The position numbers were made by a program, and so were the translations under genes. A stretch of DNA of 64,000 bases. Origin: an uncultured Clostridia bacterium (lineage in GTDB: Bacteria; Bacillota; Clostridia; Oscillospirales; Ruminococcaceae). Below the pieces are notes generated by a model. It made no database searches and was not told the origin of the DNA. It saw only the letters and a program-made list of their open reading frames with translations. The DNA is taken from the NCBI GenBank assembly GCA_947168885.1, contig CAMVNQ010000012.1:1-64000 (forward strand), in the 5' to 3' direction. This document shows positions 11,940-28,957 of this stretch, piece by piece. Numbering within the stretch: the stretch's first letter is position 1; each line of letters opens with the position of its first letter.

Positions 11940-12206
11940 ATCTTCTCCTGTTTGCTGTATCCATCATAAAACGTGAAATGCAATTATTTTAAGAAATTAT
12001 ATCATAATACTATCAAATAGTCAATATCTACATATATTCTTCTCACAGAAAAAAGCATTTTTCTTCTCCGAGCGGAACAAAATCCATAATCGGTATGATA
12101 TAATATAATATTGTATATAATGGGGAGATTTGCTTAAAACACTGGCAGAGATCTTATCTTTGCAATAGATATCACGCAGTAATTGAGATATGAGGAGGAC
12201 AAAACA
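11940..12206. promoter_or_regulatory. Divergent promoter region of regulator/kinase and acyl-ligase cluster
   Basis: Strongly AT-rich. It contains a TATAAT-like run (GGTATGATATAATATAAT, about 12096-12113) facing the ligase cluster, whose ribosome site GAGGAGG ends ten bases before the ATG at 12207. No gene is seen here. Confidence 0.4.
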
Positions 12207-13892
12207 ATGAACACAGAAAAAGAACTTACTGGCTATCCCTCGATAGACAAGCCGTGGGAAAAAGGGAAATCCTTTTTTCAGAAGCATCCGATTATCCCTT
12301 CTATAAACATATACTCACTTATAAAACAAATCAATAAAAAGAATATGGATGCTCCCGCAATTACGTGTCACGACGAAACATATACATATCGGGAAATGCT
12401 GCAAGACTCAGTTAAGCTAGCCAATGCGCTTGTTATAAACGGAATAAATCGCGGTGATATTATTGCAGTATGTATGCCGAGTTATTATGAAGCAGCAATT
12501 GTTTTTCTTGCTTGTAACAAAATCGGCGCAATTTTCACCTGCTTGAATAATCATGCTTCAATTTCTGAAATTCAAAGCTATATAAATCTTTACCACACAC
12601 CTGTTTTGTTTACTGACAGGACAGATCTTGTTGAGCTTTTGAATAATGGTGTGATGAATACAGTCGTACTTGTAAAGACCGATAAACTGGACAAAAAGAA
12701 AGGTGCCGTACATTATGCAGACTATATAAAGAAGGGTTCTTCAAATTGGAAAGGCGGCATTACATTCAATGGAAAAGACGATGCGTTAATTCTATACACT
12801 AGCGGCACAACTGGCAAGCCTAAATCAGTAGTTCTTACAAATATAAACATTATTTCATCTATAATATATGAGAAAAATACAGCAACAGATATTGAAATCA
12901 ATGTTACACGAACGTTAACCTGCGTTCCTTTTTCATATCCTTACGGACTAATAACATCACTTATTACAAGCTTGCTTTGGCAGAAAGAAGCCGTCCTCGC
13001 GCCTTTCATTGGCATGGATACAGTTCAGTATTATATGTCATATAAGCCCAATATGATTTTCGGGTCACCAGCCTTACTAAATCTTATAATGAAGGGTATC
13101 CCAGACGACTTTGAACTTGCTTTTGTAACCAGTTTTGTTTCGGGAGGAGATTTCCTGCCAGCAAATCAAGCTGAGCAAGGAAAATTTTTTTTTAAAAAAC
13201 ATGGCAGTTCAATCGAAATCGGAAATGGCTTTGGCAATGCCGAAACCGTCAGCAACGGATCGACACCTGTGGGCGTAGAAAGTCGTCCTTCTACTGTTGG
13301 TAAAATTCTGACAGGAACAGATGTAATGATTGTAGATCCAAACACTTATAAGGAAAGGCATTATAATGAAGAAGGGCTGATGCTTGCAACAGGTAAACAT
13401 ATATTTCGTGAATATTATCATGATCCGGAAGCGACAAAAGCTGCAAAGCGGACTATAAACGGTCGCGAGTATTTTATTACTGGAACAATGGGATTTATTG
13501 ATAAAGATGGATATTTCACTTTAACCGGACGTCAATCACGTTTTTATATAAATTCATCATTAAATAAGATATATCTTGATCATGTTCAGAAAATAGTTGG
13601 GGATTTAAATTGTGTAGAAGCTTGTGCTATTGTAAAAGTTCCCGATAAAACTGAACTGTTTGTAAATAAGGCCTACATTGTATTAAAAGACAATTATAAG
13701 CCTAATGAAGAAATGAAGCAGACTATTATTGATAAATTGAAAGAAAGTCCACAAGGAGATGAATCGGAAACTCTGAAAAGCCACGAGATACCGACATATA
13801 TAGAATTTTTAGATAAACTTCCGCTTATGGAAGGAAGTGAAAAGGTAGATTATTTGACTTTGGAGAAAATGGCGGAAGAAATGGAGAAGTGA
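12207..13892 (+). CDS. Tagged AMP-forming acyl/aryl ligase (ANL family), ribose-binding Asp replaced
   Basis: 561 residues starting at MNTEKELTGYPSIDKPW after GAGGAGG. The phosphate loop is intact (LILYTSGTTGKPKSVVLT). The core motif normally TGD reads TGTMGFIDKDG, so the Asp that usually contacts the AMP ribose is Thr. The C-terminal A10 region is LPLMEGSEKVDYLTLEK, which keeps a lysine in a shifted context. The ~15-residue N-terminal tag is shared with two other ligases here. The enzyme would activate a carboxylic acid as acyl-AMP and load CoA or an acyl carrier protein; the altered motif could mean weak or non-canonical catalysis. First gene of the cluster. Confidence 0.85.
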   Translation: MNTEKELTGYPSIDKPWEKGKSFFQKHPIIPSINIYSLIKQINKKNMDAPAITCHDETYTYREMLQDSVKLANALVINGINRGDIIAVCMPSYYEAAIVFLACNKIGAIFTCLNNHASISEIQSYINLYHTPVLFTDRTDLVELLNNGVMNTVVLVKTDKLDKKKGAVHYADYIKKGSSNWKGGITFNGKDDALILYTSGTTGKPKSVVLTNINIISSIIYEKNTATDIEINVTRTLTCVPFSYPYGLITSLITSLLWQKEAVLAPFIGMDTVQYYMSYKPNMIFGSPALLNLIMKGIPDDFELAFVTSFVSGGDFLPANQAEQGKFFFKKHGSSIEIGNGFGNAETVSNGSTPVGVESRPSTVGKILTGTDVMIVDPNTYKERHYNEEGLMLATGKHIFREYYHDPEATKAAKRTINGREYFITGTMGFIDKDGYFTLTGRQSRFYINSSLNKIYLDHVQKIVGDLNCVEACAIVKVPDKTELFVNKAYIVLKDNYKPNEEMKQTIIDKLKESPQGDESETLKSHEIPTYIEFLDKLPLMEGSEKVDYLTLEKMAEEMEK

Positions 13893-13894
13893 AA

Positions 13895-13957
13895 ATGAAC
13901 ACAGAAAAAGAACTTACGGGCTACCCGTCGATAGACAAGCCGTGGTTGAAGTATTAA
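13895..13957 (+). CDS. 20-residue orphan copy of the ligase N-terminal tag
   Basis: An ATG two bases after the previous stop, with GGAG eight bases upstream, opens a frame that encodes MNTEKELTGYPSIDKPWLKY and then stops. This is exactly the N-terminal tag of the neighbouring ligases with nothing after it. It is either the stump of a ligase gene lost by recombination or a real small peptide. The ribosome site is intact. A second stump of the same kind lies at 24189. Confidence 0.6.
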   Translation: MNTEKELTGYPSIDKPWLKY

Positions 13958-14014
13958 TAAGGAAATGACTGTATGATAAATGTTCCTAAATACAATATAT
14001 AGTAAGTGCAATAT

Positions 14015-14809
14015 ATGAAAAGAATTATAATAATTATACATAAACTCTTATATCCTGTCCTTTTGCTTATGTTCAGGACATTCAAAGCTCATAACATCAC
14101 TTTCTATAATGAAATGCCGCAATTAGATGAAAATGCAATATTTGCAGTAAATCATTCCTGTAAATATGATATTCCATACACTTGTGAAGTTGTTAAGAGA
14201 AGCAGTTATGTTCTGATAGGAAAACAGCCACTTGAATTTATAGATAGAATCGCTTTTTGGCTTAATGGAACCGTATGGGTTGACAGGAAAAACAGAAATG
14301 ACAAGAAAAAAGCAACATCAAAAATGATTGATCTGCTGAAAAAAGGTGCAAATCTGTTTATGTTCCCCGAAGGAACATGGAATCTTACACCATCCAAACC
14401 TATGTTACCGCTGTATTGGGGAATTATTGATATTGCAAGAAATGCCAAAAAGCCGATAGTGCCTTTGATACTTGAATATACAGACAAGAAATGCTATGTC
14501 GCTTTCGGCAGTCCTATGTACATATCTCAGGACGACAACAAGGGCGGAAAAATAAAAGAGCTTGCCGACAGCATGGCAGCGCTGAAATGGCAGATTTGGG
14601 AGAAATATCTCGATACCGGCTATAATTCAGAGGAAGAATGGAAAGTCGAAGCAAGTAGGCGTGTCGCAGATTATCCAAAACTTGATTACGAATATGAGTG
14701 TTCCGTCATCAGAAAAGAGACCTTTTATTTCGATGATTTTGTTGATCTTGATAAAATAGAACCTTTCAGTACAAATGCGTTTTTATTCAGTAAAAGGAAT
14801 CATGATTAA
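14015..14809 (+). CDS. PlsC-like acyltransferase
   Basis: 264 residues from MKRIIIIIHKLLYPVL, the start that aligns with the next paralogue; a GTG at 14006 is the alternative. It carries the acyltransferase motif I as NHSCKYD (NHxxxxD) and motif III as FPEGTWN, with a hydrophobic N-terminal anchor. The family transfers acyl groups from acyl-ACP or acyl-CoA to glycerol-phosphate-type lipids at the membrane. It shares the tail YEYECSVIRKE with the next gene, so the two arose by tandem duplication. Set inside an acyl-activation cluster, it probably accepts the cluster's activated acyl group; the acceptor is unknown. Confidence 0.88.
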   Translation: MKRIIIIIHKLLYPVLLLMFRTFKAHNITFYNEMPQLDENAIFAVNHSCKYDIPYTCEVVKRSSYVLIGKQPLEFIDRIAFWLNGTVWVDRKNRNDKKKATSKMIDLLKKGANLFMFPEGTWNLTPSKPMLPLYWGIIDIARNAKKPIVPLILEYTDKKCYVAFGSPMYISQDDNKGGKIKELADSMAALKWQIWEKYLDTGYNSEEEWKVEASRRVADYPKLDYEYECSVIRKETFYFDDFVDLDKIEPFSTNAFLFSKRNHD

Positions 14810-14814
14810 TTTAT

Positions 14815-15615
14815 ATGAACAAAATTAATATTATTATCAAAACATTACTCCATCCAATAATGTATCTCGGTGTTAAGGCAATCAGGCCAGTAAAACCTCA
14901 GATTATCAGCGGAAAAATAGTCAATGGCTGTATATATGCTGTAAATCATACTAATGGAAACGATTTTCCCACTGCTGCTCAAATCGTTAAGCATCATTTT
15001 TACATACTGGCTGATTATACAATGAAAAAAGACATCGGAGTAAATATATTGAATCGCCTCAACGGTGTGGTGTATGTTGACAGAAAAAGCCGACAGAACC
15101 GAGCAAAAGCAAAAGATGATCTAATTTATCTTTTGAATAATAACAAGAATGTGCTTTTGTTCCCGGAAGGCACATGGAATCTATCGCCAAATCTGCTTAC
15201 TTTGCCGCTGAATTGGGGAATTATTGACATTTCGAATGCTTCCGGAAAGCCCATACAACCGATCATAATCTCATACACCGACGGAAAGACATATTGCAAG
15301 ATAGGCGATCCGTTTTATTCCAAACAGGATGCGAACAAAAAAGAAAACATAGATAAACTGCGAGAGATTATGACTACTATGATGTGGGAGCTTATTGAAC
15401 AAGATGGTTTATGTCATAGGAGTAAGATAAATATAGATTACTATAATAGATGGGTTAAACAACAGCTTGACACATATAAGAAACTTGATTTTGAGTATGA
15501 ACAGTCGGTCATACGGAAAGAGTTTGAGACATCGGATGATGTTTTCAGTCACCTAAAGAATATAGAACCTAAAGCAAATAATTCGTATTTGTTCAATAAA
15601 GGGAATCATGACTAA
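14815..15615 (+). CDS. PlsC-like acyltransferase, tandem paralogue
   Basis: 266 residues, five bases after the previous gene. Motif I is NHTNGND and motif III FPEGTWNLSP; both catalytic His and Asp are present. The N-terminus (MNKINIIIKTLLHPIMYLG) is a membrane anchor like that of the upstream copy, and the C-terminal FEYEQSVIRKEFE is conserved between the two. Two stand-alone acyltransferases plus two more domains in the next gene give four PlsC units in one operon, which suggests acylation of several positions or of different acceptors. Confidence 0.88.
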   Translation: MNKINIIIKTLLHPIMYLGVKAIRPVKPQIISGKIVNGCIYAVNHTNGNDFPTAAQIVKHHFYILADYTMKKDIGVNILNRLNGVVYVDRKSRQNRAKAKDDLIYLLNNNKNVLLFPEGTWNLSPNLLTLPLNWGIIDISNASGKPIQPIIISYTDGKTYCKIGDPFYSKQDANKKENIDKLREIMTTMMWELIEQDGLCHRSKINIDYYNRWVKQQLDTYKKLDFEYEQSVIRKEFETSDDVFSHLKNIEPKANNSYLFNKGNHD

Positions 15616-15629
15616 CGGAGAGTAACACA

Positions 15630-18600
15630 ATGGAAACAGAAAAAGGACTTGAAGGCTATAATCTATTTGTAAAACGAATGGATTATATTACAGAAAAGTA
15701 TAGCACCAAAAACGCATTTACATATATGCGTAACGACAAATCACAAACCCATGTCACTTTTTCAGATGTAGGAAAATTCATAAAAACATCTGCGGAAGAG
15801 TTCAAGCGTATTGGGTTGAAGCAGGGCGACAGGGTAGCTGTAATATGTCCTCATTCACCGTATGCTGTATTTACAGGAATGGCTCTGACACATTATGGGA
15901 TGACCATAGTTTTGATTGATGCATCGCTACCGCAAGCAGAAATAGAGAAACTTCTTGCATTTTCAGATGTAAGAGCTGTTTTTACTGTACAAAAAATCTA
16001 CGATAAACTGAATAAAGCTTTAGTTACAAATATACCATGTTATAAGATCTATGATGAACTTGCTATTACTCCGTATGACGATAATAAAACAATCTGTTCC
16101 GCTTCAACAAAAACAAAAGACCCGGAGCGTGATGTTATCGCAATATTGTTTTCGTCCGGAACGACTGGGCAGATGAAAGGAATTAAGGGTACGTATACTT
16201 CTGTACTGCTTGCCCGTGATGTTTTTGAAAGGCTGTCAGGGCTTGAAGACTATATGACATATCTTCTGGTGCTGCCGTTTAATCATATTGCGGGATTTAC
16301 CGGTGCTATGACATATTTTCTTACAGGATGTGAACTCGGGTTCATCGAAGAACCGGATGCATCTAAGCTGGGGACAGCTTTAAAGGAGTTTCAGCCTTAT
16401 TATTTTGCTATGGTACCGAAAGTTTATGAGGTAATGCAGGAGAAAATAACCGCCGCAATAAAAGAAAAGGGTACAGTAGCCTCTGCCTTTGTGTTTGGTA
16501 TGATGAAGCTTACAGGTTTTCTGCGCCGCAACTTTGGTATTAACATCGGTAAAAAGATGTTTAAAAGCATTACTGCAACTGTTTTCGGAGAAAACATCTT
16601 CGGAATCGGTACTGGCGCGTCTCCATGTAAAAAGGATACAGCTGAATTTTTTCTTAATCTTGGACTTGAATGGTCAAATCTGTATGCCACAACAGAAACA
16701 AGCGTTCCGATAGTCGCTACAGGTGTTTTTGACCGTTATCCGAATAATACAGTAGGAAATGTTAATGCACATCCCGAAATAAATGTCAGAATAAACAATG
16801 CAAATGCCGACGGCATAGGTGAGATCGCTGTCAATTCGCAGCTTATGATGAAGGGGTATTTCCGCCGTGACGATCTTACCGCCGCTGCGTTTGACAAAGA
16901 CGGTTTTTTTCTTACCGGCGATTACGGATATATCGACAAAAAAGGGTATCTTCATATAACAGGCAGAGTCAAAGACAGTATAGTCCTCAAAAACGGTAAG
17001 AAAGTGTCCCCCGACGATGTTGACAGCTATTATATGTCGCTTATCCCCGAAATTAAAATCGCAAGCCGTGGATTTGAGAATGAAACGGAAATGTGTGATG
17101 AAATACATATTTTTGTAGAAGCTGACGGACTTACGAACATTGAACTCTCTGATATTACCGAAAAGCTGAACAGCGAATCGAGAAAAGCTCCGCCGATGTA
17201 TAAAATCAGCGGAATACATTATATTGAAAAAATACCGAAAACCTCTGTCGGTAAAGTCAAGCGATATATGCTGACATTGGATAATGCAAGCAAAAGACCA
17301 ATAAAAGCACACTTTGACAGTCCAAATGATCTTAAAGAAAAAATATTTAATATACTGCGATCTCATACGAATTCATCTGAAATAATGCCGAATTCCAAGT
17401 TATCGGCTGATCTTGGCTTTGACAGTCTTACAATATTTGAAGCCACATCAGAGATTGAAAGTATAATAGGCGTTGATATATCATCTCGTATAAACTCTGA
17501 AACTACGGTGGAAAGATTAATTGAAATAAGCAGCAATCCTGTTGATCTCAAGCTCGAAGAATTTCCCAAACCCAAAACACCTCAAATGATTAAAACACTG
17601 AATAGATGGATACATTTTTCACAAAAGCATTATATAATTGAAGCAGAGGGAATAGAAAACATTCCTAATAGCGAGGGATATATCATTTGTTCCAATCATG
17701 CAAGTTATTTTGATCCTATCTGGATATTAACAGCAATGGGTAACAAAGCTGATTTAAACGGCGTTTGCTGTATGGCGGCAGTACATACAATGAAAGGCAG
17801 GACTTCACGGAGCATTTTTGATGCGCTCGGTGGTATTCCGGTCGATCGTGAAGGAAATACGATACCTGCAATGAGCTATGCTAAAAGCTGTCTGACGAAA
17901 GGAAGAAGCGTTATAATATTCCCCGAAGGAGCAAGATCAAGAGACGGAAGTATGCTTCCGTTTAAAAATGGCGCCGCAGAGCTCGCACTCGCGCTCGGAA
18001 GACAAATACTTCCGGTTAGGATAGATGGTGCTTTTGAGATATTTCCTCGAACAATGAAGCGTCCGAAGTTATACGACAATAAAAATCATAAAAGGTACTC
18101 GCTAAAAATATCATTCGGAAAACCGATAAATCCAAGCGGTAGCGCGAGTGAGTTAACTGAGTTGCTTAAACAGAAAATCGCTCACCCCGATATTACAAGC
18201 GCAATTACAAAAGATAAAGTTAAGGCATCGGTAATAAACGCTATTAGAGAAGTATCACAGATTGATGAAAGTTTTACAATTAGTGATAATATGTCTTTGC
18301 GGAATGATATAGGATTGGATTCACTTGCTATTTTTGAGCTCAGTGTTGCTCTAGAGAATGAATTTTCAATTCAAATAGAGGCGGCAATAAATGAGAGCAC
18401 TACCGTCGGAGATATTATTTATATGATAGAAAAAGGCGAATCATATAGCGAGAGTAATGATGCTGGCGATTATCCGCTGCCCAAAAGTGAAGCGGACAGA
18501 AGTCGATTTGGTAAATTCATTGATAAAACCGACAAGAAATATAATGTCGTATTAAATGGTATTGATAACGTCGTTCATGGCGAAAACTATATCTTTTGCC

Positions 18601-19097
18601 CTAACCATGAAAGTCACTATGATGGTATGTGGATCATAGGTCATCTTGGAAGCGAATACAGGGATAATATATGTTCTATAGCGGCTGACTATCTGTTCAA
18701 AAAGAGAATTTACAAACGCGGTATAGTATTAATGGGCGGAATTCCTACACACAGAAGCGGAAACACAACTACAGCTATGAAGAGAGCCTATGAATGCCTC
18801 AAAAATGGGATGAACCTTCTCATTCATCCCGAAGGTACACGAACCAGAAACGGTGAACTCGGTGAATTTAAGCTTGGTGCGGCGGAGTTATCGATACAAA
18901 CTGGTGTAAAGATCATTCCGGTATGTATCAATGGCGCAAGAGAGATATTCCCGCCGGACAAACTACTTCCGAACACCGGAAAGAAATATACGCTTGAAAT
19001 AAACTACGGGAAACCGATCTCTCCAGATGGAAAAACTGCAAAGGAAATTACGGAAGAAATCAAAGCATTTATTGTAAGCAATAAAAGAAAGGTGTAA
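15630..19097 (+). CDS. Ligase-ACP-PlsC-ACP-PlsC fusion enzyme
   Basis: 1155 residues. Domain order: AMP-ligase (about 1-545) with loop FSSGTTGQMKG (S175-G180), LTGDYGYID (D431) and the terminal K542 in SVGKVKR; acyl carrier domain 1 with LGFDSL (phosphopantetheine Ser599); PlsC 1 with NHASYFD (H690) and FPEGARSRDG (764-767); carrier domain 2 with IGLDSL (Ser898); PlsC 2 with NHESHYD (H993) and HPEGTRTRNG (from H1066). All core catalytic residues are present. The layout lets one chain activate a free fatty acid, hold it as thioester and transfer it twice. E. coli Aas (acyltransferase plus ligase) is the nearest known idea, but without ACPs. The start METEKGLEGYNLF looks like a worn version of the tag. 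Confidence 0.9.
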   Translation: METEKGLEGYNLFVKRMDYITEKYSTKNAFTYMRNDKSQTHVTFSDVGKFIKTSAEEFKRIGLKQGDRVAVICPHSPYAVFTGMALTHYGMTIVLIDASLPQAEIEKLLAFSDVRAVFTVQKIYDKLNKALVTNIPCYKIYDELAITPYDDNKTICSASTKTKDPERDVIAILFSSGTTGQMKGIKGTYTSVLLARDVFERLSGLEDYMTYLLVLPFNHIAGFTGAMTYFLTGCELGFIEEPDASKLGTALKEFQPYYFAMVPKVYEVMQEKITAAIKEKGTVASAFVFGMMKLTGFLRRNFGINIGKKMFKSITATVFGENIFGIGTGASPCKKDTAEFFLNLGLEWSNLYATTETSVPIVATGVFDRYPNNTVGNVNAHPEINVRINNANADGIGEIAVNSQLMMKGYFRRDDLTAAAFDKDGFFLTGDYGYIDKKGYLHITGRVKDSIVLKNGKKVSPDDVDSYYMSLIPEIKIASRGFENETEMCDEIHIFVEADGLTNIELSDITEKLNSESRKAPPMYKISGIHYIEKIPKTSVGKVKRYMLTLDNASKRPIKAHFDSPNDLKEKIFNILRSHTNSSEIMPNSKLSADLGFDSLTIFEATSEIESIIGVDISSRINSETTVERLIEISSNPVDLKLEEFPKPKTPQMIKTLNRWIHFSQKHYIIEAEGIENIPNSEGYIICSNHASYFDPIWILTAMGNKADLNGVCCMAAVHTMKGRTSRSIFDALGGIPVDREGNTIPAMSYAKSCLTKGRSVIIFPEGARSRDGSMLPFKNGAAELALALGRQILPVRIDGAFEIFPRTMKRPKLYDNKNHKRYSLKISFGKPINPSGSASELTELLKQKIAHPDITSAITKDKVKASVINAIREVSQIDESFTISDNMSLRNDIGLDSLAIFELSVALENEFSIQIEAAINESTTVGDIIYMIEKGESYSESNDAGDYPLPKSEADRSRFGKFIDKTDKKYNVVLNGIDNVVHGENYIFCPNHESHYDGMWIIGHLGSEYRDNICSIAADYLFKKRIYKRGIVLMGGIPTHRSGNTTTAMKRAYECLKNGMNLLIHPEGTRTRNGELGEFKLGAAELSIQTGVKIIPVCINGAREIFPPDKLLPNTGKKYTLEINYGKPISPDGKTAKEITEEIKAFIVSNKRKV

Positions 19098-19100
19098 AGA

Positions 19101-19697
19101 ATGAATATCGGCGTTGATGTTGATGGCGTACTTGTTGATATGGAAGGATATCAGCTTCGTACCGGAACCGAATATTTCAAGAAGAAATATGGTAAAGATG
19201 TTGTAAACCCCAAAGGATATGACATAGAAGATATTTTTGATTGTACACATAAGGAAAGAGAAAAATTCTGGCTGAAATATATATGGGCATATTGTCTGAA
19301 AGAACCTATATTTCCTTATGCTGCCGAGACCTTGAAAAAGCTGCACAATGAAGGACACAATATAGTAATTATTACAAGCCGAGCACATACGACCGAAAAA
19401 GGTTTAACTGGCTGGGTGTTCAGAAAAATATTGTTGCGATGGCTAAAAAAGAACGGCGTGTATTATGATAAGATAGTTTACTGCACTGAAAAGAACAGCG
19501 GTGAGGATAAGCGGCGTGTGTGCCTTGAAGAAAACATTGATGTTATGATCGATGATAAGCCCGAAAACCTTAATGCTATTATGGATAATATGAAGGTGAT
19601 GTGTTATCCGGCTGTATGGAATGAAGATATAGACGAGAAGCGATATATCAGAGTTAATGATTGGTCGGAAATATATACTATAATTGTACAAGCATGA
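19101..19697 (+). CDS. HAD-superfamily 5'(3')-nucleotidase-like phosphatase
   Basis: 198 residues, three bases after the fusion gene. HAD motif I is DVDGVLVD, the Thr/Ser of motif II is in IIITSRAH, and motif IV is MIDDKPENL. The pattern is that of the NT5C-like branch, which dephosphorylates nucleoside monophosphates, but such enzymes also act on other small phosphates. In this cluster it could remove the phosphate from a phosphatidic-acid-like or head-group precursor; that is only inference from position. Complete, cytoplasmic, no signal peptide. Confidence 0.75.
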   Translation: MNIGVDVDGVLVDMEGYQLRTGTEYFKKKYGKDVVNPKGYDIEDIFDCTHKEREKFWLKYIWAYCLKEPIFPYAAETLKKLHNEGHNIVIITSRAHTTEKGLTGWVFRKILLRWLKKNGVYYDKIVYCTEKNSGEDKRRVCLEENIDVMIDDKPENLNAIMDNMKVMCYPAVWNEDIDEKRYIRVNDWSEIYTIIVQA

Positions 19698-19728
19698 ATA
19701 ATGTATAAGTGTTTGTAGGAGGTCAGCT

Positions 19729-20622
19729 GTGAGTTTGCGTGAAAATATCGTGCTTTCTCTTGTAAAGTACAAATTGAACAAATCCTTAGATTTGAGCGAG
19801 CTGAAAGAAGTATCATCTGAAGGGCTCATAGAGCACAGAGATATTCCATATAAAAATCGTTCAGGCAAGGAACTCCTTATGGATATTTATGAACCGGAAG
19901 TTGAAGCAGGGAAAGAACTACCCGTGATTGTAAATATTCACGGCGGAGCATTGATTGAAGGCAACAAAAATCTATCTGCCGGGTTCTGTCGTCATCTTGC
20001 AAAGCGGGGGTATCTGGTTTTTTCGCTTGAATATCGTTTGATACCGGATGTTCGTGTTTATGAGCAGTTTGATGATGTATGCGCCGGAATCGATTGCGTA
20101 GGCAGAAAACTTGTTGATTTCGACGTTGACCTGACGAGGACATACATGGTGGCGGAGAGTGCAGGCGCGTATCTTGCCGCTTATGTTGCCGCAATGAAGA
20201 ATTCCGAAGTGCTGCAAACGGCGATAGGCTACAAGCCTTCACGAATGAAGTTCAAAGCGCTCGGATTAATCAGCGGTATGTTTTATACTACCCGAAAGGA
20301 TTCTATCGGGAAATTCCTTTCACGATCTTATTACGGTAACGACGAAAGAAGCAAACGAATGGCGGAATATACTAATCCCGAACACCCCGAAATCATTTAT
20401 AATATACCGCCTTGCTATCTTGTAACGAGCAAGGCGGATATGCTAGAACGATACACGCTTGATTTTGCGGGAGAACTTGGCAATAAAGGTATAGAGCATT
20501 ATCTTCGGCACATGGGCAGCGACCCGAAGTTGATACACGCTTTTCCTGTACTGCGTCCCGATCTTCCGGAAAGCGAACGGGTTATAGATGAGATCGTAAA
20601 GTGGTTTCATGAGCATGAATAA
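19729..20622 (+). CDS. Alpha/beta-hydrolase esterase
   Basis: 297 residues, GTG start preceded by AGGAGG seven bases upstream. The oxyanion-hole motif is NIHGGALIEGN and the nucleophile elbow is VAESAGAYLAA, a variant of GxSxG in which the first Gly is Glu. Acid and base are likely the Asp in SKADMLERY and the His in LIHAFPV. This is the hormone-sensitive-lipase-like carboxylesterase fold. It lies between the lipid-building fusion and two further ligases, so it may trim or recycle an acyl ester made by the cluster. Confidence 0.8.
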   Translation: MSLRENIVLSLVKYKLNKSLDLSELKEVSSEGLIEHRDIPYKNRSGKELLMDIYEPEVEAGKELPVIVNIHGGALIEGNKNLSAGFCRHLAKRGYLVFSLEYRLIPDVRVYEQFDDVCAGIDCVGRKLVDFDVDLTRTYMVAESAGAYLAAYVAAMKNSEVLQTAIGYKPSRMKFKALGLISGMFYTTRKDSIGKFLSRSYYGNDERSKRMAEYTNPEHPEIIYNIPPCYLVTSKADMLERYTLDFAGELGNKGIEHYLRHMGSDPKLIHAFPVLRPDLPESERVIDEIVKWFHEHE

Positions 20623-20642
20623 AATTCTTAGGAGAAATTACT

Positions 20643-22424
20643 ATGAATAACGAAAAAGAACTTACTGGCTACCCGTCGATAGACAAGCCGTGGAAAAAGT
20701 TCTATGAAGGGATAAAACATACGGAACTGTTCCTAGATACAACTCCTTATATTGGACTTGTGCAGAATAACAAAGACTATCCTGATGAAATAGCTATCGA
20801 ATATTTTGGTTCCAAAATAAAGTTTGGTGATCTTATAAGGGACATTGACCTTGTAGCTAAAGCTTTAGAGGAATATGGAATAAAAAAAGGAGACTTCGTT
20901 ACAATATGTTCCACAACAACTCCGGAGGTTATATATGCTTTTTATGCCATAAGTAAAATTGGGGCGGTGGCAAATGTTATGTCCCCTTTTTACACTTCAG
21001 AAGAATTATTAGCTCGTATTAACGAATGCAATAGTAAACTTATAATAATGGTCGACAAGTTTATTCCTAAATTTAGAGAAACACTTTCTAAAGAAGGAGA
21101 TAAAACTATTGTTATTCTACCATTAATGAATTCATCTGTGCTAAGATTTTTATCGAAGGAATGTAAAGTAAATAAAAGGAATGAGATAAGCTGGAAGAAT
21201 TTTGTAAAGAATGGTAAAAACAGAAAAACTGTAGCTGTGCAACCATATGAGTATCACAGCCCTATGGCGATGGTTTATTCTAGCGGTACAACCGGAGCTT
21301 CGAAAGGTATTCTGCTCTCAGTGGATAGTTTTCAGCGGCTTATAAATGCTTATGGTAATTCAGGATTTGATACTTCAAGAAGACAGGCTGTTTTTCAGAA
21401 TATACCGCCATGGCATTCCACCGGACTTAGTCTGGGCATAAACTTTCCACTTTCGTTTGGGGTTAAGATGTGTACAGATCCCCGATTCGATCATGAAGTT
21501 TTTATCAAAAGTGTTATGAAATATAAACCTGAATACATACTTACCAATACATCAATGTACCAAGGATTTACTTTAGCTAAGAACTTAAAACGATTAAAAG
21601 GAAAATCGTTATCTTTCATAAAATATCCGGTTGAGGGCGGAGAAACATTGACGGAAAAAGACATTGAAAGTATCGAGACTGTTTTTAGAGAGCATGGATC
21701 ATCTGCAAGATTGTTAAATGGATATGGAGAGTGTGAATGCGGCGCTACTGTAACAACAGATATAACGAATAATAAATTCTCGAATGATGCATCTGGAATA
21801 CCTCTTCCGCGAATAACAACTATTGGAATTTTTAATGATGAATATAATGAACTTAAGTACGGGGAGCGAGGTAATATACTAGTCAAAACAGAAATTGGCA
21901 TGCTCGAATACTATAAAAACCCACAAGCCACAAAAGACTTTTTCTATGATGCACCAAATGGCGACAGATGGAGCAAGACGGGAGATATAGGCTATATAAA
22001 TCATGATGGAAGCCTTGTCGTTTTGGGAAGAAAAAGCGATATTTCCATAATAAATGGTGTTAAATTTTATAATTTTGATATAGAACGAGCAATACTACAA
22101 TCCGATAAAGTGAAGCTTTGTGAAATACAGACGCATCCGGATGATGAAAACAGATTGGTAGCACATATTGTGTGGGAAAATGATGTAAAAGAATCATTGA
22201 CGACACAACCGGATAAAATAGAGAACTATCTGCGCGAAATTCAAACCGTTGCTCAAAAACAATTATGCACTGATATGGAGATTCCCGAGAGTTTTTGTAT
22301 ATGGGATTCTTTTCCAAGTGCTCCTTCTGGGAAAAGAGATATCCGCCTTATAAAGAATTCAATTGATAATCTGATAGAAATAAGGCTTGAAAAACAAGTA
22401 GGAGGTAAAAGTAATGAAATCTAA
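20643..22424 (+). CDS. Tagged AMP-forming acyl/aryl ligase
   Basis: 593 residues, starting MNNEKELTGYPSIDKPW after a GGAG site. Motifs are complete: MVYSSGTTGASKGILLS, the hinge region WSKTGDIGYINHDG, and the A10 lysine in PSGKRDIRL. It should activate a carboxylic acid as acyl-AMP. The 3' end overlaps the next ligase gene by 11 bases, so the two are translated together. The two are each other's closest relatives here and may activate different acids or form a heterodimer. The substrate cannot be read from the sequence. Confidence 0.88.
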   Translation: MNNEKELTGYPSIDKPWKKFYEGIKHTELFLDTTPYIGLVQNNKDYPDEIAIEYFGSKIKFGDLIRDIDLVAKALEEYGIKKGDFVTICSTTTPEVIYAFYAISKIGAVANVMSPFYTSEELLARINECNSKLIIMVDKFIPKFRETLSKEGDKTIVILPLMNSSVLRFLSKECKVNKRNEISWKNFVKNGKNRKTVAVQPYEYHSPMAMVYSSGTTGASKGILLSVDSFQRLINAYGNSGFDTSRRQAVFQNIPPWHSTGLSLGINFPLSFGVKMCTDPRFDHEVFIKSVMKYKPEYILTNTSMYQGFTLAKNLKRLKGKSLSFIKYPVEGGETLTEKDIESIETVFREHGSSARLLNGYGECECGATVTTDITNNKFSNDASGIPLPRITTIGIFNDEYNELKYGERGNILVKTEIGMLEYYKNPQATKDFFYDAPNGDRWSKTGDIGYINHDGSLVVLGRKSDISIINGVKFYNFDIERAILQSDKVKLCEIQTHPDDENRLVAHIVWENDVKESLTTQPDKIENYLREIQTVAQKQLCTDMEIPESFCIWDSFPSAPSGKRDIRLIKNSIDNLIEIRLEKQVGGKSNEI

Positions 22425-24186
22425 TAAAGAGCTCACAGGCTACCCGTCGATAGACAAGCCGTGGCTGAAGTATTATCCTAAATCTGTACATTCACTAAAG
22501 CCGCAGGAGTGTACAGTATATCGTGGAATACTGGACAATAACGCAGGGCACCTTGATGATACTGCTATACTTTATTTCGGTAAAGATATTTCATACAGAG
22601 TAATGTTTGATAAAGTTGATAAATGCGCGAAAGCACTTAAATGCATAGGGATACGCGAAGGTGATTGTGTCACGCTTTGTACTGCCGGAGTGCCCGAAGC
22701 AATATACATAGTACTTGCTTGCAGTAAAATCGGTGCTGTTGCGAATTTTATAAATCCATTATTTTCTACTGATCAAATGATAGCCAGAATAAATGATACT
22801 GGCGCAAAATGGGTATTCATTCTCGATGAAATGTATTCATACATAGGAAAAGCTCTAGCACAGACAAGTATTTCTAATGTAGTAATAATACCTGTTTATA
22901 ATTCTATGCCGATAACTATAAAATCAATTGCCGCACTCAAAGGGAAATCAAGCAAAATACTAAAAGAAAAGGTTGAATATAAGACGTTGAGCTGGAATGA
23001 CTTTGAGGATTTAGCTGACAGTTATTCCGAAAACACTGAAATCGAATATAAGAGGAACAGACCTGTAATAATGGTGTACTCTTCGGGAACTACAGGTGCT
23101 TCAAAAGGAATTGTTCTGACTAATGACGGGATAAATGCGACTATATTGGATTCATCATCTGAAAAATTTCCATATGAAAGAGGTTACCGTTTTTTGCAGA
23201 TGATTCCCGTATGGTTTTCAACAGGTATTGTGCTTTCTGTACTAACGCCCTTATGTCTTGGGATAACAGTAATACCGGAACCAATATTCAATACATCCTC
23301 ATTTGTAAAAGATATGTTGAAATATAAACCTGAAATGACGCTTGTAGCAACCAGCATCTGGGTTTCAGCATTACTCGATAAAGGATTTCAAAATATTGAC
23401 CTAACAAATATGAAATATCCTATGACTGGTGGGGAAAAGATTATTGCGAGAACAGAGCGAGAGATAAACAGTTTTCTCCAGAATCATGGTTGTAAGTCTT
23501 CCCTGTTAAAGGGGTATGGTATGTGTGAGCTTGGTGGAAAGGTAAGTGACAGTATTGCTTTCAGGAATGGTGAATATTCCGGCAGCGTCGGAACTCCAAT
23601 GATCGGCGTAACAGTATCATCTTTTGATATAGATACAAATAAAGAACTAAAATACAATGAGCATGGGGAGATTAGAGTATATTCTCCGGGGTGTATGAAA
23701 GAATATTATAAAAATGAAACTGCAACTAAAGAGTTCTTTTATACTGATGATAATGGAGTAACATGGGGGCGCACAGGAGATATAGGGTATATAAATGTGG
23801 ACGGTATTATATATATTCTTGGTCGAGCTACTGATTGTGCTATACTTGATAATGGAAAGAAAGTATATCTGTTTGATATAGAAGATGTAATTTTGCATGA
23901 TGAATTCATTTCTGGCTGCAAAGTTGTGGCAACCAAAGAAAACGGGCATATTGTTCTTGCTGCACATATGACGCTGTATAATGAGTTAAGCGAAAATGAC
24001 AAGAACAAGTTGGCGTATAAATTATATTACTATTGCTGTAAGAAACTGTCTATAGAGCAGGTACCGACAAAGTATAAGTTTAGAAAGTCGTTTCCTGTAC
24101 ACCCCAATGGTAAACGTGATAACAGCGCTCTTGCTGCCGACACAGAGGGGTTTATTATCATCGATAGCCCGACAGAGGAGAATTGA
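22414..24186 (+). CDS. Tagged AMP-forming acyl/aryl ligase
   Basis: 590 residues, starting MKSNKELTGYPSIDKPWLKYY with AGGAGG inside the preceding gene. Catalytic signatures are MVYSSGTTGASKGIVLT, WGRTGDIGYINVDG and the lysine in PNGKRDNSAL. The tag continues into the standard sequence that links it to the adenylation core, as in many gut-Firmicute ligases. Overlap with the previous gene supports co-translation. Directly after its stop comes another tag stump (24189), so the array seems to have lost or not yet gained a further ligase. Confidence 0.88.
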   Translation: MKSNKELTGYPSIDKPWLKYYPKSVHSLKPQECTVYRGILDNNAGHLDDTAILYFGKDISYRVMFDKVDKCAKALKCIGIREGDCVTLCTAGVPEAIYIVLACSKIGAVANFINPLFSTDQMIARINDTGAKWVFILDEMYSYIGKALAQTSISNVVIIPVYNSMPITIKSIAALKGKSSKILKEKVEYKTLSWNDFEDLADSYSENTEIEYKRNRPVIMVYSSGTTGASKGIVLTNDGINATILDSSSEKFPYERGYRFLQMIPVWFSTGIVLSVLTPLCLGITVIPEPIFNTSSFVKDMLKYKPEMTLVATSIWVSALLDKGFQNIDLTNMKYPMTGGEKIIARTEREINSFLQNHGCKSSLLKGYGMCELGGKVSDSIAFRNGEYSGSVGTPMIGVTVSSFDIDTNKELKYNEHGEIRVYSPGCMKEYYKNETATKEFFYTDDNGVTWGRTGDIGYINVDGIIYILGRATDCAILDNGKKVYLFDIEDVILHDEFISGCKVVATKENGHIVLAAHMTLYNELSENDKNKLAYKLYYYCCKKLSIEQVPTKYKFRKSFPVHPNGKRDNSALAADTEGFIIIDSPTEEN

Positions 24187-26457: not shown

Positions 26458-27597
26458 ATTGCTATCTATCATTTCAGTGTTAAGATCGTATCCCGAAGTA
26501 CCGGTGCAAGCTGTGTCGCAAAAGCCGCGTACATCGCCGGGGAGAAGATCAGAAACGAACGCGATGGAGTCACCCATGACTACCGCCGCAAGCACGAGGT
26601 CGTTTACAAAGAAATCATGCTGCCTGCGGGAGCTCCCGAACGATTCCGTGAAAGATTGGTGCTCTGGAACGCTGCGGAGAAAAAGGAAACCCGCAAAAAC
26701 AGCCAAACCGCGCGCAGCATTGATGCCGCACTTCCGCGAGAATTATCCCGGGACGAACAGATCGACCTTGTGCGGAACTTTGTCGCGCAGAACTTCACGT
26801 CAAAGGGAATGTGCGCGGATTTTGCGATTCATGACAAGCAGGACGGAAATCCCCACGTTCACATTTTGCTGACAACTCGCCGTGTCGATGCGGACGGGTT
26901 CACAACAAAAGACCGTTCATGGAACGACAGGGCGATGCTGGAGCAATGGCGGGAATCTTGGGCAGACTGGTGTAATCACAAGCTGTACTTCGTGTCTGAC
27001 GAGCGAATTGACCACCGGAGCTATGCAGATCAGGGCATTGACAAAATCCCGACTGTTCATCTCGGTACGGGAGCCTGTGCTATCGAAAAGAAAGGAAAAA
27101 AGACAGATCGCGGGCTGTTGAACTTGCAGATAGAAATTGAAAACACAAGTAACGATATTGATAACATAAAGCAGGAAATGGAGCTAAACCGTCAATTCAT
27201 TTCAGAACAGAAAGAGAAACATTGTCAGGCTTTCTTTGGCTGCTCTATCTCTGAAACCTGCGGCATTGTAGAAAAATATGACTTTATCTCTTATCTTGCG
27301 GAGGAAATGAAGAGAAGAAATGAACACTCTATTATTTCAAAAGTCGATGACGAATACTCAAAAATGATAATTGCCCGAAGAAATTCTGAACTACTACATG
27401 AAATAATAAATGAGATGATGTCTGCAAGCAATTATGTTCACGAACACAAACTTTACCATTCCGGCTGGAGCAATATCATGAGAACATACAATGAACTCCG
27501 ACAGCAGGAAGAACAGGAAAAGCTGAAATCCGAACCCACATCTGCTGAGCCTAAAAAAGATAAGCCTGCCAAGTCCACAGGTTTACGTCATCATTGA
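26458..27597 (+). CDS. mobA: MobA/MobL-family relaxase with apparent ATT start codon
   Basis: The family consensus N-terminus M-A-I-Y-H-F-S is encoded here as ATT-GCT-ATC-TAT-CAT-TTC-AGT, with GGAGGAGGA ending seven bases before the ATT. The first in-frame ATG (26617) would remove ~53 conserved residues. From ATT the protein has 379 residues: SVKIVSRSTGASCVAKAAYIAGEKI, then the HUH histidines in DKQDGNPHVHILLTTR (H133, H135), then the family segment SWNDRAMLEQWRESWADWCN, and a helical tail. It nicks oriT and starts conjugative transfer with help from another element's transfer machinery. An out-of-frame ATG at 26451 overlaps the ribosome site. The oriT lies just downstream. Confidence 0.85.
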   Translation: MAIYHFSVKIVSRSTGASCVAKAAYIAGEKIRNERDGVTHDYRRKHEVVYKEIMLPAGAPERFRERLVLWNAAEKKETRKNSQTARSIDAALPRELSRDEQIDLVRNFVAQNFTSKGMCADFAIHDKQDGNPHVHILLTTRRVDADGFTTKDRSWNDRAMLEQWRESWADWCNHKLYFVSDERIDHRSYADQGIDKIPTVHLGTGACAIEKKGKKTDRGLLNLQIEIENTSNDIDNIKQEMELNRQFISEQKEKHCQAFFGCSISETCGIVEKYDFISYLAEEMKRRNEHSIISKVDDEYSKMIIARRNSELLHEIINEMMSASNYVHEHKLYHSGWSNIMRTYNELRQQEEQEKLKSEPTSAEPKKDKPAKSTGLRHH

Positions 27598-27620
27598 TGT
27601 TGTTTTCGCTCACATTAATT

Positions 27621-27813
27621 GCGCCGCTCCTGCGGCGCATACGCGCGGCTGTAGCGCGTTTTTCGTGGCATCGGGTAGATGCCTTGTTATTCAAAGGTCG
27701 AGGGAATATGTCCCTCGCGCACACAAACGCGAAGCGTTTGTATAAGTGCGCCCTCCGGGGGCGGTTAGCTACTTGGTTTTTCAGATTACTTTCACTCGAT
27801 ATGAAAAGTAGCT
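27621..27813 (+). other. oriT: Array of seven hairpins containing an IncQ-like oriT core
   Basis: Successive perfect inverted repeats: GCGCCGC/GCGGCGC (27621-27638), ACGCGC/GCGCGT (27641-27659), GGCATC/GATGCC (27667-27683), CGAGGGA/TCCCTCG (27699-27717), ACAAACGC-GAA-GCGTTTGT (27723-27741), CGCCC/GGGCG (27749-27763) and AGCTACTT/AAGTAGCT (27767-27813). Directly after the fifth comes ATAAGTGCGCCCT. An inverted repeat followed by TAAGTGCG|CCCT is the arrangement at the R1162/RSF1010 oriT nick, so the nick is predicted between 27750 and 27751. The matching MobA-type relaxase gene is immediately upstream. The role of the other hairpins is unknown. The rest, up to 27969, is a GC-rich leader without a gene. 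Confidence 0.7.
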
Positions 27814-27969
27814 TGTTTCACCAAATGGGTTAGTTGCATACCGCCCCCGCCGCCGACCACTGTGTTCTCCGGTATTTTAGCCGGCGTACCGGAACCGCAG
27901 TTACGGCAGCTTCGGGGTTCGCACTTTGCAGATAAAGAAAACAGACAAAAATGAGGGAGGAACCACACA

Positions 27970-28422
27970 ATGACAAAAGAACAGAAGACCGAAGCTCTGC
28001 GCACGAGTATTGCCAAAGCGCAGAAAAGACAGCGCGAGCTGATGTCCGAGGTCGATAAGACCGAGGCGAAGCTCGCAAAGCTCGAAAAGGAGCTCAGCGC
28101 CGAGCTCGACAGGCAGAAAACGCAGAACTGTCGTAAGATGGGAGAACTTATCTACGAAAAATTCGGGGATGACATTACTCCGTCCGAGTTTGAGGATATG
28201 ATCGCGTTCATTTTCCTCAACGATGAGATCCGGGAGTATGTCGAAACCGAAAAGAAAAAGCGGAAAGCGGCTGAGATTGCTATCGTGAATGGTACAGAGT
28301 ATAGCGATACCGACTCGGAGCCGCTGCCGCCGAAAAATGAAAAATCGAAATCCTTAAATAGTATCATAGACGATATTATTAACGATTCCGATGATAACTC
28401 TGATGCGGACGATGAAGAATAA
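27970..28422 (+). CDS. Coiled-coil mobilization accessory protein (DUF3847-like)
   Basis: 150 residues after GAGGGAGGAA. Residues 5-60 form a charged coiled coil (ALRTSIAKAQKRQRELMSEV, then DKTEAKLAKLEKEL). A small conserved block follows (RKMGELIYEKFGDDITPSEFEDMIAFI), and the tail is very acidic (DSDDNSDADDEE). The order coil plus short folded block matches small proteins found beside MobA/MobL relaxases in clostridial elements. I infer a relaxosome or copy-control accessory role. No DNA-binding motif is certain. Confidence 0.65.
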   Translation: MTKEQKTEALRTSIAKAQKRQRELMSEVDKTEAKLAKLEKELSAELDRQKTQNCRKMGELIYEKFGDDITPSEFEDMIAFIFLNDEIREYVETEKKKRKAAEIAIVNGTEYSDTDSEPLPPKNEKSKSLNSIIDDIINDSDDNSDADDEE

Positions 28423-28503
28423 AAATAGAAATGTCGCTGCAATTAAAAGAAAAGATAAGTTTGGGAGAAACAAGGAAGTTGCATTTTGCACGAAAGGAGC
28501 TAA

Positions 28504-28800
28504 ATGAGAGAAAATGAATTACTTAAAACGACCGACGTAGAGCCGAAGGAATGTTCTTCTGCTGCGCCGACCGCTGTACCCGTGGCGACAGATGTCGATA
28601 AAACGGTATCTGAATCTCCGAAAATAGAAATTCCCGAAGAGTGTGCCGAAGCATTTATCGCCGCTGTCGAGATCGGCTACTACAAGGAATTTTACAGACA
28701 AGGCTTGATAACTGCGGATGAGTTGGATATTCTCCTGCAGTTACAGAAAAAGAAAGCCGAAGAAAAGAAAAATATAAAATCAGACTTAAGCGCAGCATAA
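28504..28800 (+). CDS. Small element-encoded protein, unknown
   Basis: 98 residues after a GAAAGGAG site. The N-terminal half is Pro/Thr/Val-rich and probably unstructured. The C-terminal part (AVEIGYYKEFYRQGLITADELDILLQLQKKK) forms two helices resembling a SHOCT-like or recombination-partner module. It lies between the mobilization genes and the recombinase, in the same direction, so it may serve transfer or excision. I do not recognise a named family. Confidence 0.6.
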   Translation: MRENELLKTTDVEPKECSSAAPTAVPVATDVDKTVSESPKIEIPEECAEAFIAAVEIGYYKEFYRQGLITADELDILLQLQKKKAEEKKNIKSDLSAA

Positions 28801-28874
28801 TTTTATCTATCCCCACAGATCCGGGATAGATAAAAATCCATATCACAGACGCTCTTATGGCAATCAAATAATTC

Positions 28875-28903
28875 TTGACATTAGTGTGTGAAAGTGATAT
28901 AAT
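28875..28903 (+). promoter_or_regulatory. Perfect consensus promoter for the serine recombinase
   Basis: TTGACA (28875-28880), 17-base spacer, TATAAT (28898-28903). It lies 55 bases before the recombinase start and predicts strong sigma-A transcription of the recombinase. Confidence 0.85.
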
Positions 28904-28957
28904 GGGTCTGTGGGGAGATACTTTGTGTATCTCCGATTATCGGAGGGAAGGAGGAAC

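Follow-up and report, generated by a model that had tools for sequence, protein, structure and literature searches.

A ligase-ACP-PlsC-ACP-PlsC protein in an uncultured Clostridia bacterium: a putative self-loading acyltransferase with a second carrier-acyltransferase module

Introduction

What would a bacterial protein do with one acyl ligase, two acyl carrier protein (ACP) domains and two PlsC acyltransferases, all in a single chain and with a carrier in front of each acyltransferase? Such a protein, of 1155 amino acids, is encoded at positions 15630 to 19097 of the DNA analyzed here (the window), which comprises the first 64,000 nucleotides of contig CAMVNQ010000012.1 (GenBank assembly GCA_947168885.1) from an uncultured Clostridia bacterium of the family Ruminococcaceae. 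A ligase and a PlsC domain are also fused in one chain in Aas of Escherichia coli. We compare the window protein with such known enzymes and with its relatives in other genomes, and weigh what it might make.

Results

The open reading frame has an ATG start with GGAGAG upstream, contains no internal stop and is continuous over 1155 codons. Domain limits within it were set with hidden Markov models (HMMs) built for this analysis. The two modules are named M1 and M2.

15630..19097, + strand: ligase-ACP1-PlsC1-ACP2-PlsC2 fusion, 1155 amino acids (open reading frame, Pfam, domain HMMs, AlphaFold2 model)
15630..17294, + strand: AMP-forming acyl ligase domain, amino acids 1-555, with SSGTTG at 175-180, TGD at 429-431 and K542 (PF00501, 2.1e-44)
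17328..17540, + strand: ACP1 of the first module, M1, amino acids 567-637, Ser599 in LGFDSL (PF00550, 24.3 bits, cut-off 20.8)
17601..18182, + strand: PlsC1 of M1, amino acids 658-851, with NHASYFD (H690), GGIPVDR and FPEGARSRDG (PF01553, 98.4 bits, cut-off 23)
18213..18434, + strand: ACP2 of the second module, M2, amino acids 862-935, Ser898 in IGLDSL (PF00550, 35.0 bits, cut-off 20.8)
18495..19091, + strand: PlsC2 of M2, amino acids 956-1154, with NHESHYD (H993), GGIPTHR and HPEGTRTRNG (PF01553, 85.4 bits, cut-off 23)

An earlier note, made from the sequence alone, had read this frame as a single polypeptide with the order ligase-ACP-PlsC-ACP-PlsC, and this is borne out by the open reading frame, by the domain HMMs and by Pfam (AMP-binding at 2.1e-44, Acyltransferase at 1.9e-51 and PP-binding at 8e-12, the latter two in two stretches each). 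SGTTG, TGD, K542, S599, H690, S898 and H993 lie where that note had placed them. The presence of the five-domain order and of the named residues in one protein is confirmed, and chance is excluded as the source of such a frame. Both PlsC domains match PF01553 and have the NHx4D motif, the motif II arginine and an EGTR-type motif III. They match the sequence of TmPlsC (5KYM) at 1.1e-12 for PlsC1 and 8.3e-15 for PlsC2, and the fusion scores 134.8 bits against TIGR00530, a sum over both PlsC stretches that lies above the cut-off of 102.95. In both carriers the serine stands in a DSL motif at the start of helix II, with helices at 599-613 and 898-912 in the AlphaFold2 model. The individual domains are folded in this model, which has a mean pLDDT (predicted local distance difference test) of 79.6. 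Its top Foldseek matches are luciferases, plant oxalyl-CoA synthetases, EntE-EntB and EntF; no PlsC structure is among the 50 matches listed, which are ligases and nonribosomal peptide synthetase (NRPS) proteins. Matches by sequence include FadD13 (4.7e-23). Two phosphopantetheinyl transferase (PPTase) genes in the genome pass the Pfam cut-off and are available for carrier priming.

Conservation was assessed in 29 carrier-PlsC tails, two from the window, 26 from one-frame relatives and one from a split gene. The carrier serine and the PlsC histidine, whose conservation among homologs the earlier note had singled out, are kept in all 29, as is the whole NHx4D motif; EG(T/A)R is found in all 28 tails that extend to it (relative L097 is cut before the motif). 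K542, S599, N689, H690 and D695 are invariant in the 26 rows of alignment A3.

These relatives belong to a shorter, one-module form of about 860 amino acids, ligase-ACP-PlsC, that is found repeatedly, in Clostridia genomes as well as in Fusobacteriota and Rubrobacter, and that, where annotated, is labeled only "AMP-binding protein". One-module proteins share domains, motifs and order with the window protein up to PlsC1, and one of them, L087 from Eubacterium sp. RGIG9300 (water deer rumen, according to the record title), also has a HAD (haloacid dehalogenase-type) phosphatase gene behind it. Each of the 26 one-frame relatives has exactly one ACP-PlsC tail, whereas the window protein has two (amino acids 567-851 and 862-1154), the second being of another lineage.

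The one-module form was traced in genome samples that overlap, with the window's own genome included in the family, order, class and phylum counts and two candidates scored per genome. Among 396 genomes of the same bacterial family, 25 match at E <= 1e-60. Eleven of these (own genome included) span ligase, carrier and PlsC, among them G064, whose protein is that of L097 and breaks off within PlsC; nine match only via a PlsC tail, in frames of 1164-1295 amino acids in eight cases and of 731 in one; and five match in the ligase alone. The whole model is covered in 8 of the 19 matching genomes at the level of the order (394 genomes, E <= 1e-90), in 2 of 27 at that of the class (391 genomes, E <= 1e-90) and in both matches in the phylum (398 genomes, E <= 1e-120), one of which has an internal TAA. 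In the genus (60 genomes, own included) there are at least two one-module proteins, in G014 and G042, besides the window protein, and 3 of the 39 genomes of L087's genus have one (E <= 1e-60). Among the full-model matches in the sampled genomes, with frames of 758-898 amino acids, none besides the window has two tails; sampling may have overlooked two-module proteins that are rare or diverged.

A single-protein scan of contigs found no relatives, and a pattern scan of one genome per species, based on a three-row alignment, found 241. The best 80 of these 241 were examined further. They include 19 ligase-ACP-PlsC proteins in a single frame, of which L097 is truncated, and the split L106, where ligase-ACP and PlsC are encoded in separate frames; in none of the other 60 do ligase and PlsC share a frame. 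Further relatives come from PLSDB, in two Fusobacterium records and in Ilyobacter and Rubrobacter. Pfam was run on both Ilyobacter proteins and the Rubrobacter protein and confirmed the three domains in each. The two complete ligase-ACP-PlsC genes of Ilyobacter polytropus adjoin (WP_013388595 and WP_013388596, 50% identical).

Individual relatives show some variation. The one-module frame at L097:10016-12277 (the L063 protein) stops inside PlsC at 753 amino acids, with a HAD gene 321 nucleotides on, and is either a broken gene or a sequencing error. At L058:7486-11444 (in G042, the same site as L104), a one-module fusion overlaps by 4 nucleotides with the end of an efflux gene, labeled MATE-type by eye, and no HAD gene was found in the 10 kb downstream that L104 covers. 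L091 and L093 (both titled Alistipes) and L102 (titled Myxococcales) group with Clostridia rows in the tree.

No account of ligase-ACP-PlsC proteins, of the two-module form or of NRPS-PlsC proteins was found in open-licence papers, a body of literature outside which most subscription papers and all preprints lie. The architecture is not described as already characterized in these papers, and the statement in the earlier note that no described example was known stands in this respect; the uniqueness of the principle does not, as the one-module form recurs. Ligase-carrier-PlsC fusions are already in the databases, without an assigned function; within the reach of our searches, the two-module form is new.

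M1 and M2 have different origins. They are 36% identical to each other. Between the window protein and L087, identity is 77% in the ligase and 74% in M1, and only 37% between M2 and the L087 tail. In maximum-likelihood trees, the window protein is sister to L087 for the ligase (100/100) and for M1 (99/98), and M2 is sister to the tail of L064 (95/94) inside an 11-row M2 clade (100/99), a tail lineage about 50% identical to M2. Simple duplication of M1 is ruled out as the source of M2 by the 36% identity and the separate lineages. L064 joins an M2-type tail (52% identity) to a distant ligase (40%), which suggests that tails are swapped between ligases. The HAD gene starts 11 nucleotides after M1 in L087; the window has M2 interposed between these two. 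Given the kinship of ligase and M1 with L087, the other lineage of M2 and the position of the HAD gene, the ancestor was most simply a ligase-M1 gene followed by HAD, which would have acquired M2 from another tail lineage.

M2 looks functional because it keeps 80 of the 86 residues (93%) that are invariant in nine M2-type tails (truncated L097 left out); in a leave-one-out comparison, the nine tails keep 90-100% with respect to the other eight. The same residue count does not favor M2 as a decayed relic. M1 and M2 alike keep all 16 of the residues that do not vary among the other 26 untruncated tails.

The fusion is one of eight same-strand genes at 12183-24186, presumed to form one operon, in which the distances from one gene's end to the next start (start minus previous end) are 114, 6, 15, 4, 32, 21 and -10. 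The other seven are as follows.

12183..13892, + strand: stand-alone acyl ligase with ELTGYPSIDKPW near its start (PF00501)
14006..14809, + strand: stand-alone PlsC, motif III FPEGTW with Trp for Arg (PF01553)
14815..15615, + strand: stand-alone PlsC, FPEGTW, 39% identical to the PlsC at 14006..14809 (PF01553)
19101..19697, + strand: HAD phosphatase, NT5C-like, 3 nucleotides past the fusion (PF06941, 1.8e-11)
19729..20622, + strand: alpha/beta hydrolase, esterase-like (PF20434, PF07859)
20643..22424, + strand: stand-alone acyl ligase (PF00501)
22414..24186, + strand: stand-alone acyl ligase, overlapping the preceding gene by 11 nucleotides (PF00501)

Only the HAD gene recurs when the seven neighbors are compared by BLAST (E <= 1e-15) with the relatives' loci, many of which are short and not whole genomes. 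In this comparison the stand-alone PlsC pair and the esterase have no relatives outside the own genome's loci and the ligases have only distant ones, with no close relative of the 12183..13892 ligase in the loci compared; the other operon genes are thus unsupported as a conserved system. Of 27 relatives, made up of 26 fusions plus the split L106, 15 have a HAD gene downstream, as the window does, and two others have one immediately upstream. The window HAD protein is 85%, 62% and 43% identical to those of L087, L088 and L089, declining with ligase identity. HAD phosphatases have a motif set of DxD, Thr/Ser, Lys and an acidic motif IV. The downstream gene has the full set, and D6, D8, T92, K137 and D152 are invariant in 17 of 17 rows (the L096 HAD being outside the set). 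The AlphaFold2 model of this protein has a pLDDT of 95.1 and matches best, by Foldseek, a putative beta-phosphoglucomutase and then other HAD enzymes; no solved relatives were found by sequence beyond chance-like scores.

Other features of the region were observed. In the FPEGTW PlsC pair (14006-15615), Trp takes the place of the Arg to which binding of the acceptor phosphate is ascribed, and both proteins keep NHx4D. The ELTGYPSIDKPW near the start is common to three ligases (those at 12183, 20643 and 22414) and is perhaps a docking or targeting peptide. Downstream of the operon, at 26617-30577, are a MobA/MobL relaxase-like gene (match from profile position 38) and a serine recombinase gene, and a resolvase-like gene (read by eye) lies upstream of the L087 fusion; the locus may have been carried by mobile elements. 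A promoter and terminator scan gave 67 promoter-like sites (shuffled mean 47.9, standard deviation 6.7) and 13 terminator-like sites (shuffled mean 7.6, standard deviation 2.8), neither of which was used for operon limits. Elsewhere in the same genome, L059:6244-12382 (G000:C9) has individual genes for ligase-ACP, PlsC, PlsC, ligase and ACP; behind them lies a gene for an LRAT-domain protein with a weak 4'-PPTase match (PF01648, 17.8 bits, cut-off 25).

PlsC tails of this type also follow NRPS carriers. L168 (7-3645) and L169 (1076-4771), from the same bacterial family as the window, are Condensation-AMP-PCP-Acyltransferase proteins by Pfam, where PCP is the peptidyl carrier protein, and their PlsC tails are 41% and 39% identical to M2. 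These two are the confirmed NRPS-PlsC cases among the nine of 396 family genomes that match by the PlsC tail alone. L167, read by eye, resembles them. The proteins have about 1230 amino acids, and L168, L169 and L167 come from genomes G256, G445 and G425. Like the window protein, they have an adenylation domain, a carrier and then a PlsC tail, but they begin with a Condensation domain and have a single PlsC. In NRPSs, the domain behind the last carrier releases the chain. With PlsC in this place, it would by analogy most simply be an in-cis release domain onto an alcohol acceptor, and the NRPS-PlsC proteins are candidate machines for placing aminoacyl or N-acyl-aminoacyl groups on lipid acceptors.

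Discussion

We propose, with the balance of evidence about even, that the window protein is a self-loading ligase-ACP-PlsC acyltransferase that has gained a second ACP-PlsC module and performs acyl transfer twice, in the simplest case to a single acceptor. The ligase would activate a carboxylic acid (probably a fatty acid) by adenylation and join it as a thioester to the phosphopantetheine arms on Ser599 of ACP1 and Ser898 of ACP2. PlsC1 and PlsC2 would each unload the carrier just upstream, esterifying a hydroxyl of a membrane-side acceptor. Each polypeptide would thus make two acyl transfers, most simply to one acceptor in turn, and the HAD phosphatase would probably act on the phosphorylated acceptor or product. 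We infer the loading of both carriers by one ligase, the fatty acid substrate and the unloading in cis, and likewise the sequential diacylation of one acceptor and the role of the HAD enzyme. The placement of a carrier before each PlsC would be explained if the PlsC unloads that carrier, and operation without soluble ACP or CoA is suggested by the architecture. Self-loading, as proposed in the earlier note, is supported by the architecture, by the same order in the relatives and by the PlsC tails behind NRPS carriers. Two of its further suggestions have no direct support: that the product is a diacylated lipid made from free fatty acids, and that host or diet acids are scavenged.

Known enzymes resemble the window protein in part. 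Aas and LplT-Aas also have ligase and PlsC in a single chain, but in the order PlsC-ligase, as the model positions indicate, with one PlsC and without an internal carrier, whereas the window ligase comes first. Over the whole protein, NF005959 (Aas) scores 88.7 of 886 bits and NF006386 (LplT-Aas type) 200.7 of 1221; membership in either group is ruled out by these sub-cut-off scores and the opposite order. In fatty acyl-AMP ligase (FAAL)-ACP didomains, an acyl-AMP ligase is fused to the carrier that it loads, but these are associated with polyketide synthase and NRPS genes and not with PlsC, and a FAAL-specific insertion or helix excludes CoA (PMC8460268). TmPlsC (5KYM), a lysophosphatidic acid (LPA) acyltransferase, shares NHx4D, the motif II Arg and EG(T/A)R with the window PlsC domains. 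It is a stand-alone chain of 247 amino acids with a lysine, K105, whereas the window domains are fused and have Ala at this position.

This alanine bears on the acceptor. R159 and K105 of TmPlsC have been suggested to contact the LPA phosphate (PMC6688108), and K105 has been given an acyl-ACP-side role instead (PMC8319176). The position is Ala in the window's two tails and 14 others and Lys in 13 tails, and the motif III Arg is kept in both window domains. With Ala at the K105 position, the acceptor may be other than LPA, or its phosphate may be bound in another way. Among 28 genes (window counted once), a HAD gene lies downstream in 14 of the 15 with Ala; of the 13 with Lys, two have it downstream, two upstream and nine have none seen. 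We do not lean on this correlation, in which the rows are mutually related and the downstream flanks of L067-L071 and L101 are only 1.4-1.6 kb.

Several observations weigh against a two-transfer acyltransferase of this kind. The pTM (predicted template modeling score) of the AlphaFold2 model is 0.49, so that the domain arrangement is unreliable; the listed NCBIfam fatty-acid ligase models all score far under their cut-offs; both window PlsC domains lack the lysine of TmPlsC; and no biochemistry of the relatives was found in the open-licence literature. The two-module form occurs in one genome only among those sampled, and the M2 end branch, at 0.79, is the longest of its clade. The Pfam carrier match is weak in relatives, at 19.4 bits in L087 (cut-off 20.8) and absent in L064. 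L087 has a single module, so the basic function does without two transfers; in its genome (1.8 Mb, perhaps incomplete), further tail matches are weak and none is of M2 type.

A more ambitious version, which we hold only tentatively, treats the protein as a lipid synthetase that resembles a two-module NRPS. One ligase would serve two carriers, two PlsC domains would release in succession onto one acceptor and the HAD enzyme would finish the product, a two-chain lipid whose synthesis from free acids would need neither soluble acyl-ACP nor acyl-CoA. The protein would then belong, together with the C-A-PCP-PlsC proteins, to a larger group of carrier-based machines, as yet undescribed, with lipid acceptors as the target of release.

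The two modules might instead work in parallel, both carriers being loaded and PlsC1 and PlsC2 differing in acceptor or chain length, so that two mono-acylated products result. We consider this a possibility of limited weight. It fits the distinct lineages and motif signatures of M1 and M2 (CMAAVHTM/FPEGARSRDG versus SIAADYLF/HPEGTRTRNG, 36% identity) and the occurrence of each tail lineage as the sole module of other proteins, but one chain, one ligase and one HAD enzyme suggest a single pathway, and glycerolipids usually end up acylated at two positions.

It is also conceivable, though doubtful, that the ligase activates a hydroxy, aryl or amino acid and that the product is not a membrane lipid but a small ester, or else a sugar or nucleotide bearing an acyl group. 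PlsC tails of this type do follow NRPS adenylation-PCP domains, the Foldseek matches run to luciferases, oxalyl-CoA synthetases, EntE-EntB and EntF, and the HAD enzyme resembles small-substrate phosphatases. However, FadD13 and long-chain acyl-CoA ligase models are among the sequence matches, PlsC is a membrane-lipid fold, and besides the fusion the operon encodes three more acyl ligases and a pair of PlsC proteins.

Repair of lysophospholipids with free fatty acids in the manner of Aas, in which the second module only broadens the substrate range, seems improbable. The best NCBIfam match is indeed NF006386, an acyl-[ACP]--phospholipid O-acyltransferase, and a ligase accompanies PlsC as in Aas; yet both Aas-type scores are far under cut-off, the domain order is opposite and the carriers are internal. 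In addition, Pfam finds no transporter among the eight operon genes, Ala occupies the K105 position and a HAD partner has no obvious place in such repair.

That one module is inert, the result of a recent functionless gene fusion, is very unlikely: the long M2 branch and the single sampled genome with two modules speak for it, but M2 is not a duplicate of M1, and its motifs and clade-invariant residues are intact or largely kept. An assembly or binning artefact that fused two genes, to which the absence of the two-module form from the other genomes sampled could point, has almost no claim, as a chimera is unlikely given the 36% identity of M1 and M2, the even guanine-plus-cytosine content (39.7% in the ligase, 38.9% in M1 and 38.8% in M2; window 43.7%) and a frame continuous over 1155 codons that reaches a conserved HAD gene 3 nucleotides on.

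If the two-transfer mechanism that we propose is true, two-chain lipid synthesis can be cis-acting and proceed module by module, bypassing the soluble acyl-ACP, acyl-CoA and acyl-phosphate pools on which the PlsX/PlsY/PlsC and Aas pathways draw. The one-module relatives represent a recurrent architecture of no known function; the NRPS versions point to PlsC as a domain able to release onto lipids. L087 and the window protein, with one module and two, constitute a natural experiment on the contribution of the second module. In bacteria with such genes, the products would be candidates for unknown membrane or signaling lipids.

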